Of a DNA stretch of 64,000 nt, positions 14,357-59,743 are shown in pieces; position 1 is the first letter of the stretch; each line of letters starts with the position of its first letter. The translations under genes were made by a program, and so were the position numbers. The stretch lies in contig NZ_CP036271.1 of assembly GCF_007745175.1 (NCBI RefSeq), positions 1,276,154 to 1,340,153 of the forward strand, read 5' to 3'. The DNA is from Caulifigura coniformis. GTDB taxonomy: Bacteria; Planctomycetota; Planctomycetia; Planctomycetales; Planctomycetaceae. The notes beneath the pieces are model-generated. The model was not told where the DNA came from and did no database searches. It saw nothing but the letters and a program-made list of their open reading frames with translations.

Positions 14357-15634
14357 ATGACGCGGTTGTTCATCCGCTTTTACGTCAGCGTGATTCTCAT
14401 TCTTTCAGTCGCGATGTGCGTGATGGCGTTCGCCTTCAGGTACCGGATCGATACCGACATCAGCGGTGTCGCCGAGAAGGCAATGCGGGGAGGCATCCGG
14501 CAGGTACGGCAGTCGATCCGGAACTCACCGGCCGCCAATGACCCCGCGCTCTTCGACAGTTTGCAACGGCAACTCGGATTCCCGGTCCAGCAACTCTCGA
14601 CAGAAGAGACCTCGCTGATCGTTGGCGAATGGCTGCAGAAGAAGGACGACGTCATCGTGCACGCTGGTCACCAGCTGGCCGTCTTCATGCCGCTGGACGA
14701 CGGCGCGAATTCACTGCGTCTCGGACCCGTTCCCGCCCACGACGGCACGATTGAGACCGACATGATCGTCGCGATCGGCGCCGTCCTGCTGCTGGTGGCG
14801 GTCGCAATTGCCGCCGTGCTTCGCCCCCTCGCGAAGCAGCTGAGCATCATGGAACAAACGGCCGTCTCGATCGCGGATGGCAACCTCGCGGCTCGGGTCG
14901 ACATCACCAAGGCCAGCTCCGCCGCGACCTTCGCACATGCGTTCAACGACATGGCTGCCCGCACCGAGACGCTCCTTCGAACCCAGCAGGAGCTGCTTCA
15001 AGCCGTCTCGCATGAGTTACGAACTCCGCTGTCCCGCATTGGATTCGCAATCGACCTGCTGCGCACTTCCCGAAACGACGATGAACGGGAGCAGCGACTG
15101 ACGTCGCTCGAGACCGCCTCTCAGGAACTCAACGGAATGGTCGGCGAGCTGCTGCAGTACGTCCGCCTGGAAACGGGAAGTCCGCAATTGGTCAAAGAGA
15201 GCGTGGCCCTGCGACCGCTGGTCGATGATCTGATTGAAAAGGCCTCACTCACAAACAGAGCGATTCGGTTCCAGATCGGTCCCCAACTCGCCTCCAGTGA
15301 AAGTGACATCACCGCCGACAGTAGCGGCTTGGTGCGAGTGCTCGGCAACTTGCTCGCCAACGCCAGCCGTTTCGGCCGTCACACTGTGGTCGTGAACGCA
15401 GTCAGTTCGGCCGCAGGAACCACGATCGACGTCGACGACGATGGACCAGGAATTCCCGACGCCGAACGTGAACGGGTCTTCGAACCATTCGTCCGGCTCA
15501 ACGAGGACCACCCTGGCGCCGGCCTCGGCCTGGCCCTCGTCAAGAGAATCCTGACAAACCACGGCGGAACCGCCGCGGTCCTCAAAAGCCCACTGGGCGG
15601 CTGTCGCATCCGGACCGTCTGGCCGAAATCATGA
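14357..15634 (+). CDS. Sensor histidine kinase, RstB-like
   Basis: The protein has 425 residues. TM1 spans about 5-27 (FYVSVILILSVAMCVMAFAF), a periplasmic loop of about 110 residues follows, and TM2 is near 137-157 (IGAVLLLVAVAIAAVL). Then come a HAMP linker, HisKA with SHELRTPLSRI (phospho-acceptor His near 220), an N-box in LGNLLANASRFG, G1 in DDDGPGIP and G2 in GAGLGLALV. The ATG at 14357 follows GCGGTGAG; the frame is open further upstream. It is the likely partner of the regulator at 11838. The periplasmic signal is unknown. Confidence 0.92.
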   Translation: MTRLFIRFYVSVILILSVAMCVMAFAFRYRIDTDISGVAEKAMRGGIRQVRQSIRNSPAANDPALFDSLQRQLGFPVQQLSTEETSLIVGEWLQKKDDVIVHAGHQLAVFMPLDDGANSLRLGPVPAHDGTIETDMIVAIGAVLLLVAVAIAAVLRPLAKQLSIMEQTAVSIADGNLAARVDITKASSAATFAHAFNDMAARTETLLRTQQELLQAVSHELRTPLSRIGFAIDLLRTSRNDDEREQRLTSLETASQELNGMVGELLQYVRLETGSPQLVKESVALRPLVDDLIEKASLTNRAIRFQIGPQLASSESDITADSSGLVRVLGNLLANASRFGRHTVVVNAVSSAAGTTIDVDDDGPGIPDAERERVFEPFVRLNEDHPGAGLGLALVKRILTNHGGTAAVLKSPLGGCRIRTVWPKS

Positions 15635-18275: not shown

Positions 18276-18626
18276 ATGCCCACCCCCTACTCAATGGATT
18301 TGAGGCGACGTGTCGTGGCCGAAGTCGACCGCGGCTCTCCGCCGGCCGAAGTCGCCCGGCGATTTCAGGTCACTGAACGAACCATCTGGAACTGGCTCGC
18401 GCTTCGCAAAGAGACTGGCCAGATCACTCCCCGGCAGGGAGATGTCGGCCCGGAGTGCGTTCTGGAACCGCATCGGGAGCGGATTTTCAAAAGCGTCCAG
18501 GACGACCCCGGCCTGACGCTCGCCCAAAGGCAACGCCAACTCGGTCTGCCGGGCTGCGCGACCACTCTGTGGAATGCGCTTCGGCGCTGGGGAATCACTC
18601 TCAAAAAAAGTGCTCAAAGCTGCTGA
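18276..18626 (+). CDS. IS630 transposase, N-terminal helix-turn-helix part (ORF A)
   Basis: The 116 residues contain a helix-turn-helix (VARRFQVTERTIWNWLALRK) and the ATTLWNALRRWGITLKK segment that in IS630 family proteins leads directly into the catalytic domain. The frame stops after SAQSC*, just past a run of seven A at 18603-18609. The continuation is in ORF B, one base further on. Confidence 0.85.
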   Translation: MPTPYSMDLRRRVVAEVDRGSPPAEVARRFQVTERTIWNWLALRKETGQITPRQGDVGPECVLEPHRERIFKSVQDDPGLTLAQRQRQLGLPGCATTLWNALRRWGITLKKSAQSC

Positions 18627-19215
18627 ACAACAGCGGCCGGATGTGGCTCAGAAGCGCCGCTGGTGGAACATCCTGGTGCAGTCGAAAGCCTGTCGCCGTC
18701 TGGTGTTCTTCGACGAAACCGGGGCCGACACGAAGATGACGCGACGCTATGGCTGGGGACCAAAATCACGCCGGGTCGTGGACCATGTCCCTCAAGGGCA
18801 TTGGAAAACGACGACGTTCGCAGCGGCGCTCAGGGCCAGCGGAGTGATTGCTCCCCTGGTGCTGGATGGCCCGATGGATGGGGAATGCTTTCTGGCTTAC
18901 GTCCGTCAGTTCCTGATCCCGGCGCTGGAGCCGGGAGACTTGGTGGTCATGGACAACCTCAGCAGCCACAAGCAGAGCGCGGTGGGTGACGCGATTCGAC
19001 AGGCCGGGGCTGAGGTGTACTACCTGCCGCCGTACTCACCCGATCTCAACCCGATCGAGAAGTTGTTCTCGAAGTTCAAGACGCTTTTGCGGACGAGCGC
19101 TGAACGGACGACAGAAGGACTCTGGAACCGGATCGGAGTGCTGGTGGACGAGTTCACTCCGAGCGAATGCCTGAACTACATCCGTTCCTGCGGATACACT
19201 GCACACGAATCATGA
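18574..19215 (+). CDS. IS630 transposase, DDE catalytic part (ORF B)
   Basis: The 213 residues have the DDE triad of IS630: D in FFDETGAD, D in VVMDNLSSHK, and E in PDLNPIEKLFSKFK. It overlaps ORF A by 53 bp and is read in the +1 frame. The homologous join is at the A7 run, where both frames read Lys-Lys. A fused product needs +1 or -2 slippage, or transcript slippage removing one A. The ATG at 18574 gives an N-terminus out of keeping with the family, so separate initiation is less likely. Confidence 0.85.
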   Translation: MRFGAGESLSKKVLKAAEQQRPDVAQKRRWWNILVQSKACRRLVFFDETGADTKMTRRYGWGPKSRRVVDHVPQGHWKTTTFAAALRASGVIAPLVLDGPMDGECFLAYVRQFLIPALEPGDLVVMDNLSSHKQSAVGDAIRQAGAEVYYLPPYSPDLNPIEKLFSKFKTLLRTSAERTTEGLWNRIGVLVDEFTPSECLNYIRSCGYTAHES

Positions 19216-34797: not shown

Positions 34798-34880
34798 CAA
34801 TGCACCTCCTGAAGAGACTTCGCGACACTAGGCCGCTGACATGAAGATCTGAGGACGAACACTCGAAGATTCGGCGAGCG

Positions 34881-37029: not shown

Positions 37030-37212
37030 CTTCGATGCCGTCGATGGAGTTTCGGAAGACACGTCCGGAGAAGCTCTGGGGAGCGAAACCACGAGGACCC
37101 GACGAAAGCCGCCGAGCCCCCTGACCGTCGCGATGAATGAATGCGTCGGGACCACTGAGCGAGCAGCTAAGGTCACCGCTTCTTGTGAAGAAGTTGTGTT
37201 CACCCGTTGAAA

Positions 37213-50996: not shown

Positions 50997-51722
50997 CTAT
51001 TGCTTCCGTCCGACGAACATGAAGTACGGAACGCGGCCGAGCGGCACATAGGGTACGCGACCGCTCGACTCCCTCAGAAAGTCCACGTCAAACCGCGACT
51101 TGAGGAGCGGCAGAAGATCACTCCCGAGGAACACGTTGTCGAAAGCGAACCAGGCTGGCCAGAAAGTGCGCGTCCACCAGTTGTGCCGCGGGCCTTCGTC
51201 CGAGCGGTACTTCCGCGAGACATAAAAATCGGTGACGCCGATCACGCCCCCCGGCCGCAGATTCGCACACGCCCGTTCAACCGCGGCAATCCAGTCGGGA
51301 ATCATCGTCAGCGAGTAAGAGAACGTGACAACGTCCGCTGGCTCATCCAGTTCGAGGAGTACTGCGTCTGCTTTGCGAAGCTCAATGTTGGTCCAGCCAT
51401 TCAATCGAATCCGCTCGCGGGCCACCGCCTGAAGTGAATCCGAAAGATCGACCAGAGTGACGCGGCGTAGGGCCGCCAGACGAGCGCCTGCGTGTGCAAG
51501 ATTGCTCCCGGTCCCCGCGCCGATATCAATCCATGTGGATCCCTGTGTCAGCGGCAGACGTTGAATCAGCTCCTTTCGCCCGTGAAGCAGCCGCTCGCGA
51601 AAGTCGTCATAGCTCGACGCCTGTCCCGAATAGAAACTCTCCAACCGTTCGGCATGCGTCGCTCCCCGGATTGGATGAGCGACGAGATTCATCAGGATCT
51701 TCAGGTCGGAGGCGACGCCCAT
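50997..51722 (-). CDS. btaB: BtaB-like SAM-dependent methyltransferase (diacylglyceryl-homoserine N-methyltransferase)
   Basis: The 241 residues form one class I methyltransferase: SAM motif WIDIGAGTGSNL (about 63-74), VTLVDLS, DVVTFSYSLTMIPDWI, RPGGVIGVTDFYVSRK, and a C-terminal WWTRTFWPAWFAFDNVFLG. Family knowledge: BtaB trimethylates diacylglyceryl-homoserine to the betaine lipid DGTS. The start ATG overlaps the btaA stop by one base (TAATG), so translation is coupled. A broken paralogue lies at 40603-41000. Assignment rests mainly on its adjacency to btaA and the protein family pattern. Confidence 0.88.
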   Translation of the reverse strand: MGVASDLKILMNLVAHPIRGATHAERLESFYSGQASSYDDFRERLLHGRKELIQRLPLTQGSTWIDIGAGTGSNLAHAGARLAALRRVTLVDLSDSLQAVARERIRLNGWTNIELRKADAVLLELDEPADVVTFSYSLTMIPDWIAAVERACANLRPGGVIGVTDFYVSRKYRSDEGPRHNWWTRTFWPAWFAFDNVFLGSDLLPLLKSRFDVDFLRESSGRVPYVPLGRVPYFMFVGRKQ

Positions 51723-52939
51723 TAGAGGAGTGCAGGCGAGAGTTCTGGCTTAGGCCGGGCGATATGAAAGCTTCCATAGGTATGCACGCGGTCGTATCGA
51801 TGCAGCAGGTCCGCGAGTTCACGATCGAATATCAGGCGTTCCGTCAGCGTCCCCGTACCGCTGCCAGAATCAATCTTCACTCGGGAGATGTAGTCCGTCG
51901 TGAGGCCTCCGCTGCGCCAAAGGAAGACGGCATTGGGCGTGGCCTGCGCGAGCAGTGCCTGCCATTCCTCTTCCAGGACATGGAAATGGTGCGAGCTCAG
52001 CCAATCCATGTGGTCGAGAAGCACGAAGCGTGATGCCTTCTGCTTCCGTGATTGCAGGTGGTCAAGCATCGTCGAAGTCTCAATGTGCAATCGTTCGATC
52101 AGTCCGGACTTCAACTGCCGGAATCCTGATTCCGTCAGATACTGTGGGCAGCAGTCGCGCGAGTAGGAGCCCGTCAGATACACTCGCCAGAAATAGTTGT
52201 CTCTGAGGGGGAGATCACAGAAGACGGCCTCGATGGCGTCCTCGATGAATCCAGCGACTCGACGCGGATGATCGCGTTCGACTTCTTCCCGCTGGGCTTT
52301 CGGAACGCCGAGCAATGCCAGGACGGAATCACGTCCAATCGCCCAGCGCAGGAACCGGTTCCAGAAGCGAGGTTTCACAACGGAGTGATAGATGTCGCGC
52401 TGCTCGCTGATCGAGTTGGCATTCAGAATCGCGTTGATCGCCGGGCGCACTTTGGCGACATTGTCGATGTACTGGTTCAGGATCCACGCGACGGTACCGC
52501 TGGAGCCTCGAAAGTAGAACGAATCGCGACGTCCCGATCCCGAGAACCAGCGAATGTGCCGGTCCCAGTAATCCTTCGCGAAATCGGACAGGCCCGTTCG
52601 CAGATGAGCCTGGTACAACCACGCGAATTGTGGATGCCGGCCAGTTCCGAAAAGCCGGAAAAAGTCTTCGTGATCGAGATTCCGGATCCCCTGGCGTTTC
52701 AGTTCGAGCAGCGCGTTCTGCCGCGGATTGATGTCGACGGCAGAGACTTCCGCCGGTCCGTCCAATAGGTATTCGAGCGCGTTGCAGCCTGCGGACGTGA
52801 TGACGACCACACGGTCGCTGGCCGAGAGACGCAGTGCTTCGCGGTCCAGACGCGGATCTTCCCAGCAGGTGTTGTAGACCAGGTTTCCGCCATGCACGGC
52901 TCGAAACCACCGCGTCTGCATCCAGTCCAGTGGTCGCAT
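51722..52939 (-). CDS. btaA: BtaA-like (DUF3419) SAM:diacylglycerol 3-amino-3-carboxypropyltransferase
   Basis: The 405 residues match DUF3419: YNTCWEDPRLDREALRLS, VVITSAGCNALEYLL (SAM site), VSAVDINPRQNALLELK, ENFF-like HEDFFRLFG, RRDSFYFRGSSG, and LLDHMDWLS near the C-terminus. BtaA transfers the aminocarboxypropyl group of SAM to diacylglycerol, the first step of DGTS synthesis. The start is ATG 52939, inside TGATG, overlapping the stop of the upstream phosphoesterase gene by one base. Membrane association is expected. Confidence 0.92.
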   Translation of the reverse strand: MRPLDWMQTRWFRAVHGGNLVYNTCWEDPRLDREALRLSASDRVVVITSAGCNALEYLLDGPAEVSAVDINPRQNALLELKRQGIRNLDHEDFFRLFGTGRHPQFAWLYQAHLRTGLSDFAKDYWDRHIRWFSGSGRRDSFYFRGSSGTVAWILNQYIDNVAKVRPAINAILNANSISEQRDIYHSVVKPRFWNRFLRWAIGRDSVLALLGVPKAQREEVERDHPRRVAGFIEDAIEAVFCDLPLRDNYFWRVYLTGSYSRDCCPQYLTESGFRQLKSGLIERLHIETSTMLDHLQSRKQKASRFVLLDHMDWLSSHHFHVLEEEWQALLAQATPNAVFLWRSGGLTTDYISRVKIDSGSGTGTLTERLIFDRELADLLHRYDRVHTYGSFHIARPKPELSPALL

Positions 52940-53859
52940 CAATTGACTCCACTCATCGAGGCGAGTGATTCGAGTTCCATCGGGTCGGATTGCGAATCCG
53001 GTGTGTTGTCGGCTTCGGACGGTGACTCGATGCTCCAGGGGTGGTAGATCAGTTCAACGCTGCCGTCGGTGTATTCGACAAGTGCCGTGCAGCTTTCGAC
53101 CCAATCGCCCGTGTTCCAGTAGTCAATGCCATTCCGCTCGCTCATCCTGGGCGTGTGGATGTGACCGCAGATCACGGCATTGCACCCATGCGACGCCGCA
53201 TGTCGGGTAATCACATCTTCGAAGTTGCTGATGAAGCTGGTCGCCCGTTTGACCTGCCGCTTGATGTAGGCACTCAGAGACCAGTACCCCATTCCCAGCA
53301 TCTGCCGGGCCCAGTTGAAAAGTCGATTGAGCGCGAGCAGGGCGTCGTAGCCGAAATCCCCCAGCATCGAGAGCCACCGATGGTGCCGGACGACCGTGTC
53401 AAACTGGTCGCCATGCATCACCAGGGCCATCCGTCCATCCGCGAGCCGATGAACGAACTCATCTGCGATCTCAATACTGCCGAAGCTGTCGAAGAAGTTT
53501 CGCAGGAACTCGTCATGGTTGCCGGGGCAGTAACGCACGATCGTGCCGTGCTTCATCATGCCGATCAGTCGTCGTACCAGGAACGAATACTCGTCGTTCC
53601 AGTACCAGCCTCGCTTCACCTTCCAGCCGTCGATAATGTCGCCGACGAGATAGAGGAACTCCGGCTTCTGATGCTTGAGAAACGAAAGCAGCGCTGCGGA
53701 TTTCGTATGCCGGCAACCCAGATGAAGGTCGCTCAGAAAAATGGATCGCACTCGACGTCCGTCGGTCGACTCGCTGCGAGCTTCTTCGACCCAGTAGGCA
53801 GAACTGAGTCCGGTGATTCCATCGGCCATGCCCGAGATCCCACTCGTCGAAGATTCCAT
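52939..53859 (-). CDS. Calcineurin-like metallophosphoesterase, PlcP/LpxH-like
   Basis: The protein has 306 residues. Dimetal motifs are LSDLHLGCRH, GDIIDGWKVKRGWYW, PGNHDEFLRNF, VMHGDQFD and CGHIHTP. The family (COG2908) includes LpxH and the phospholipase C PlcP, which under phosphate starvation cuts phosphatidylcholine and phosphatidylethanolamine to diacylglycerol for non-phosphorus lipid synthesis. The GWKVKRGWYW segment is like PlcP proteins. Operon position directly before btaA supports PlcP over LpxH: its product, diacylglycerol, is the substrate of BtaA. The ATG at 53859 has AAGGTG close upstream; 53829 is an alternative. The function is inferred. Confidence 0.8.
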   Translation of the reverse strand: MESSTSGISGMADGITGLSSAYWVEEARSESTDGRRVRSIFLSDLHLGCRHTKSAALLSFLKHQKPEFLYLVGDIIDGWKVKRGWYWNDEYSFLVRRLIGMMKHGTIVRYCPGNHDEFLRNFFDSFGSIEIADEFVHRLADGRMALVMHGDQFDTVVRHHRWLSMLGDFGYDALLALNRLFNWARQMLGMGYWSLSAYIKRQVKRATSFISNFEDVITRHAASHGCNAVICGHIHTPRMSERNGIDYWNTGDWVESCTALVEYTDGSVELIYHPWSIESPSEADNTPDSQSDPMELESLASMSGVN

Positions 53860-53890
53860 TCACCTTCGTTTGCGGGAGAGTATGGAGCTT

Positions 53891-53923
53891 CGCGATGAAG
53901 CGTTGATGGGCGCGGGATGAAAG
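53891..53923 (-). promoter_or_regulatory. Candidate PHO-box-like direct repeats upstream of the plcP-btaA-btaB operon
   Basis: On the minus strand three heptamers, CTTTCAT, CGCCCAT and GCTTCAT, are separated by exactly four bases (11-bp period). PhoB sites consist of CTGTCAT-type heptamers with 4-bp spacers. The first heptamer matches six of seven bases, the other two four each. The array ends 31 bp before the ATG of the phosphoesterase gene, leaving space for a -10 element. Inference only. Confidence 0.4.
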
Positions 53924-54107
53924 TTTGAGGAACTCCCGGCCAGACGACGAGCCGCATTCACAGCAAACGAGCTGACGCTCGTTCTGGAAGGCTCATTGGC
54001 GGCTGCACGTGCAGTCATGCATAGCGCACGGCGAATCATGGTGCCTTCGGCCAGCGGAATCGGAAGTCAACGACGGCGAATTCCGGCTCTCGCTCCGAGG
54101 GCAAGCC

Positions 54108-59466: not shown

Positions 59467-59743
59467 GATCTCGATCTCCTTTCCGGGAGTGGTTGAAGCG
59501 GGTTGATCTGACGAGGAGCAGGTCGATGACATCAGGGGCGCGTGAATGTCGACAAGAGTGAAAGAAACCCCAGCATCCCGCGTGGGAATGAAGGGGCGGT
59601 CTGACTCTGATGAACTTTCGACGAACGTCGGGGGGTGGATTGTTGCGTTCCAGTGTGAGTGACGTTGATAATCTCGAAGCAGTCATCGAATCGGCTATGC
59701 AGATTCGGCCAAATATCGTTCCTGCGGGCCGCGGAGGGGTGCG

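Follow-up and report, generated by a model that had tools for sequence, protein, structure and literature searches.

A predicted PhoB-dependent promoter of a plcP-btaA-btaB betaine-lipid operon and a putative lineage-specific Pho box in planctomycetes

In the pho promoters of E. coli the -10 element follows the boxes at a distance of 10 bp, and in cyanobacteria the SphR box has the sequence CTTAACCT and occurs as at least three tandem repeats (PMC1906773). Regulation of btaAB by PhoB, and lipid exchange driven by PlcP, are established or have been proposed for Sinorhizobium, Agrobacterium and marine bacteria; the btaAB genes of Sinorhizobium (S. meliloti) are reported to be PhoB-regulated, and marine bacteria carry plcP-btaAB clusters with putative Pho boxes (PMC3972451, PMC4796936). 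We found, in the literature searched, no account of a Pho box in planctomycetes. Here we analyse a putative site of this kind in Caulifigura coniformis, whose complete genome is 6.76 Mb and whose BtaA relatives place it among the planctomycetes; the window is the whole stretch of 64,000 nucleotides of that genome that was analysed.

The operon concerned lies on the minus strand of the window. Its first gene (52939-53859, with an alternative start codon at 53829) encodes a plcP-like metallophosphoesterase (Pfam PF00149), which in profile comparison is LpxH-like but falls far under the LpxH cut-offs, and which is ~45% identical to Sinorhizobium homologues; this similarity, together with the place of the gene before btaAB, points to a putative phospholipase C, PlcP. 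The second gene, btaA (51722-52942), is assigned as the S-adenosylmethionine:diacylglycerol 3-amino-3-carboxypropyltransferase (DUF3419, PF11899, E 2.7e-116), its product being only ~30% identical to rhizobial BtaA. It is followed by a btaB-like N-methyltransferase gene (50997-51722; Methyltransf_23/25), which shows synteny with btaA in relatives. The BtaAB gene pair expected of a lipid-remodelling operon is present with its two members adjacent. The overlap between btaA and plcP is 4 bp, and all overlaps among the three genes are four bases or less. The order plcP-btaA-btaB was found again in many genomes of the family. There was no btaA match in the only other genome of the same genus examined (G001), so that the presence of the operon varies even among members of one genus.

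The first-pass annotation of this DNA had described three heptamers with an exact 11-bp period upstream of the operon and had noted that this layout, that of PhoB sites, would fit phosphate control of lipid exchange. The heptamers are present on the minus strand between 53923 and 53895, as CTTTCAT (53923-53917), CGCCCAT (53912-53906) and GCTTCAT (53901-53895), with starts spaced exactly 11 bp apart. The array does not end with these three units: a fourth (GTTCCT) and a suitably placed -10-like hexamer (CATACT) are also there. The full site (53933-53879, minus strand) reads GTTCCT-N5-TTTCAT-N5-GCCCAT-N5-CTTCAT-N10-CATACT. Scoring the sequence with the unit model described below, we find that unit 1 (GTTCCT, 53928-53933), the most upstream and one period before unit 2, is weak, that unit 2 is TTTCAT (53917-53922), that unit 3 (GCCCAT, 53906-53911) is degenerate and that unit 4 (CTTCAT, 53895-53900) matches the lineage consensus fully. 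Units 1 and 3 are thus poor matches, and the spacers are G+C-rich. The first units of relatives resemble unit 1, with the forms gaATTC(T/G)C and gaGTTCCTC. The predicted -10-like hexamer CATACT (53879-53884) lies 10 bp past unit 4, which is the gap seen in the pstS promoters of the family, and N10 also precedes GATACT in the loci L020, L015 and L190 of relatives. TACTCT at a 12-bp gap is an alternative that ranks first too, and the exact -10 of the promoter is therefore uncertain between CATACT at N10 and TACTCT at N12. The first ATG of plcP (53859) is 35 bp past the end of the last heptamer.

Our reading of this array, which we hold to be very probable on the basis of its sequence, is that it serves plcP-btaA-btaB as both PhoB operator and core promoter and would couple phosphate starvation to lipid replacement. 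PhoB binding, low-phosphate activation, the lipid product and the activities of the enzymes are inferred. Under phosphate limitation, PhoR, with sensing via PstSCAB-PhoU, would phosphorylate PhoB, and PhoB molecules would then line up head to tail on the 11-bp direct repeats, all on one face of the DNA. Bound in this way, PhoB would substitute for a -35 element, bringing sigma-70 RNA polymerase to the -10 located 10 bp past the last unit. PlcP would then remove phosphate head groups from phospholipids, and the leftover diacylglycerol would be converted by BtaA and BtaB to DGTS, a phosphorus-free betaine lipid.

The regulator expected for such an array exists, since the genome contains one classical phosphate locus, phoR-pstS-pstC-pstA-pstB-phoU-phoB (L119, with phoB at 14588-15322); PhoB- and PhoR-type models were the top matches for its PhoB and PhoR, with scores under the curated NCBIfam cut-offs. 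OmpR-family winged-helix regulators use similar direct repeats, and six proteins of the genome carry OmpR-type DNA-binding domains (Trans_reg_C), so that another response regulator of this family could bind a similar 11-bp direct-repeat site in response to a different signal. However, the pst locus has its own phoR and phoB, and the model with which the site was found was learned from promoters of pstS, a classical PhoB target; we regard binding by another regulator as very unlikely.

We derived the box of the lineage by expectation-maximisation, fitting a tied 11-bp unit to the regions upstream of pstS in 30 sequences of the family. A box of the form tTCTT(A/C)A(C/T)AaT was recovered in essentially all 30 regions, in which a period of 11 gave a log-likelihood of 282, compared with at most 190 for the other periods between 8 and 14. 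TANNNT was found 10 bp past a unit in 25 cases and at any other distance in at most 3. The consensus of the lineage is therefore CTT(A/C)A(C/T) with an 11-bp period and TANNNT 10 bp past a unit. In several pstS promoters of the family (L129, L135, L138 and L139) an extra unit often lies 22-23 bp, rather than 11 bp, past the second, as if there were two overlapping modules.

The lineage consensus also explains why the match of the window site to CTGTCAT is only partial. The first-pass annotation had taken the proteobacterial consensus as its yardstick and had noted a partial match; the partial match is real (14/21, the top score among the relatives listed), but the heptamer scored is the consensus of E. 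coli and not that of the lineage, which uses CTT(A/C)A(C/T). Scoring with CTGTCAT showed no enrichment at any period in the regions upstream of btaA operons in 96 relatives, and we rejected it as the right consensus here.

We next consider chance, i.e. that TTCAT/CCAT words stand 11 bp apart by accident and serve no regulator. Two of the four units are weak, and unit pairs alone are unremarkable, the best pair of the site having p ~5e-4 per position. Perfect pairs are not enriched across the genome: the strict pattern YTTMAY-N5-YTTMAY gave 10 matches genome-wide, mostly within reading frames, compared with 12 in the reversed control. Column-permuted unit models equalled the score of the site in 11-13% of trials. 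Against this stands the composite as a whole. With 564 kb of the genome as calibration, an array of units alone is expected 0.004 (three units) or 0.0008 (four units) times per region of this size, and an array with a generic -10 at N10 is expected 0.0004 or 0.0002 times, respectively, figures that carry a modest multiple-testing cost as three unit numbers and three -10 models were examined. With the generic -10, which was added after CATACT had been seen although both the pstS data and E. coli support the 10-bp gap independently, 1/301 control upstream regions of the genome scored as high with three units and 0/301 with four.

The four-unit composite ranked third among 327k positions. We then used a retrained unit model that leaves out this genus, with 1.76 Mb of the 6.76 Mb (26%), or 3.5 million positions, as background. 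With three units plus a textbook -10 at N10, the top site was the pstS promoter of the genome itself and the second was the window site; with four units the window site ranked first. For four units with N10, the site was rank 1 at a period of 11, but rank 641 at a period of 10 and rank 4163 at a period of 12. The site thus ranks first or second of 3.5 million, beside the genome's own pstS promoter, it sits at the promoter of exactly the expected operon, and orthologous promoters share its architecture, all of which argues against chance; we consider an accidental array very unlikely.

The conservation upstream of btaA operons was assessed with the pstS-derived model, which was trained on no plcP sequence. 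With the pair model, plcP-led btaAB operons (n=37) had a mean best score of 7.6, compared with 0.65 for shuffled sequences and 0.8 for the reverse strand. With the unit pair, 59% of the 37 plcP-led sequences were above the 95% point of the shuffles and ~40%, the window included, were under it, approximately one third of these sequences coming from one genus and the number of independent events therefore being smaller than the number of sequences. When three or four units were used, the period scan of plcP-led operons peaked at 11 only. Matches of at least 12 bits fell almost exclusively on the sense strand, the opposite strand having just one, and in 16/29 arrays a generic sigma-70 -10 lay 10 (mod 11) bp away from the array. 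Examples from relatives are GTTCCT-N5-AATCAT-N5-CTTCAC-N10-GATACT (L020), ATTCAT-N5-TTTCAT-N5-GTCAAT-N10-TATGAT (L026) and CTTAAC-N5-ATTCAT-N5-GCGAAC-N10-TAAGAT (L192). The check for conservation in relatives that the first-pass annotation had suggested therefore came out in its favour, as 11-bp arrays that match the pstS box of the family recur in related genera upstream of plcP-btaAB. PhoB and phosphate control of the betaine-lipid operon is the best reading of the site.

In btaA operons without plcP (e.g. L040-L044, L051 and L053-L059) the box was not above chance in either ~350 bp or 3 kb upstream. As these operons are unenriched for the box, the betaine-lipid synthesis they encode may lie outside phosphate control. 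A broader proposal, which we put forward tentatively and at slightly less than even odds, is that the family has its own Pho box (CTT(A/C)A(C/T), 11-bp period, 2-5 units and a -10 ~10 bp further on) and that phosphate control of betaine lipids tracks plcP, i.e. plcP-led btaA operons have the box and most others lack it. The two groups would then use betaine lipids under different conditions.

Elsewhere in the genome, only weak or antisense Pho boxes were found near the phoD- and phoX-like genes. The third-best three-unit composite, TCTTAT/CTTCAG/CTTCAG-N10-TATCCT (L120:9673-9716, plus strand; genome C1 ~2643672), is 137 bp in front of a gene for another OmpR-type response regulator and is possibly a further Pho target. 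Weaker Pho-like composites on the minus strand of the window, at 34868-34825 (upstream of a reading frame at 34800), 37223-37169 (near a frame starting at 37203) and 59626-59572 (upstream of a sulfatase frame at 59532), are probably due to chance. In addition, a reading frame that starts with MRFGAGESLSKKVLKAAEQQRPD occurs twice in the genome, at 18574-19215 of the window (plus strand) and in L200 (C1 ~4.70 Mb); it looks like an IS630-type transposase.

These results provide a tested sequence model of phosphate-starvation promoters in a large, little-studied bacterial family, and would place betaine-lipid exchange in the Pho regulon of that family. With this model the Pho regulon can be mapped across many genomes, and the planctomycetes expected to swap phospholipids for DGTS once phosphate is exhausted can be predicted.

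Compared with the PHO box of E. coli (phoA, pstS; CTGTCAT N4 CTGTCAT), the window site shares the 11-bp direct repeats and the 10-bp gap to the -10, and the proteobacterial box controls phosphate-starvation genes, as is likewise proposed for the window array. The unit itself differs, being CTGTCAT in E. coli and CTT(A/C)A(C/T) in this planctomycete family, and the window site has four units; units of the CTGTCAT form are absent from the window site, but PHO boxes do not require them and those of cyanobacteria differ too. The SphR box, with its CTTAAC core and 11-bp spacing (8 bp plus a 3-bp linker), is close to the planctomycete pstS box, although in the latter CTTAAC alternates with CTTCAC/CTTCAT and TANNNT 10 bp past a unit is typical. 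The window array has the TTCAT/CCAT form only, whereas planctomycete pstS units alternate between CTTAAC and CTTCAC/CTTCAT. The type 1 cluster of marine proteobacteria (Phaeobacter MED193) has the same gene set in the same order, plcP, btaA, btaB, with putative Pho boxes, and the window operon differs from the proteobacterial clusters in its planctomycete host and its box sequence. The principle of placing plcP and btaAB under Pho control is known from proteobacteria, both rhizobial and marine, and what appears to be new, going by the literature searched, is the planctomycete version with its lineage-specific box.
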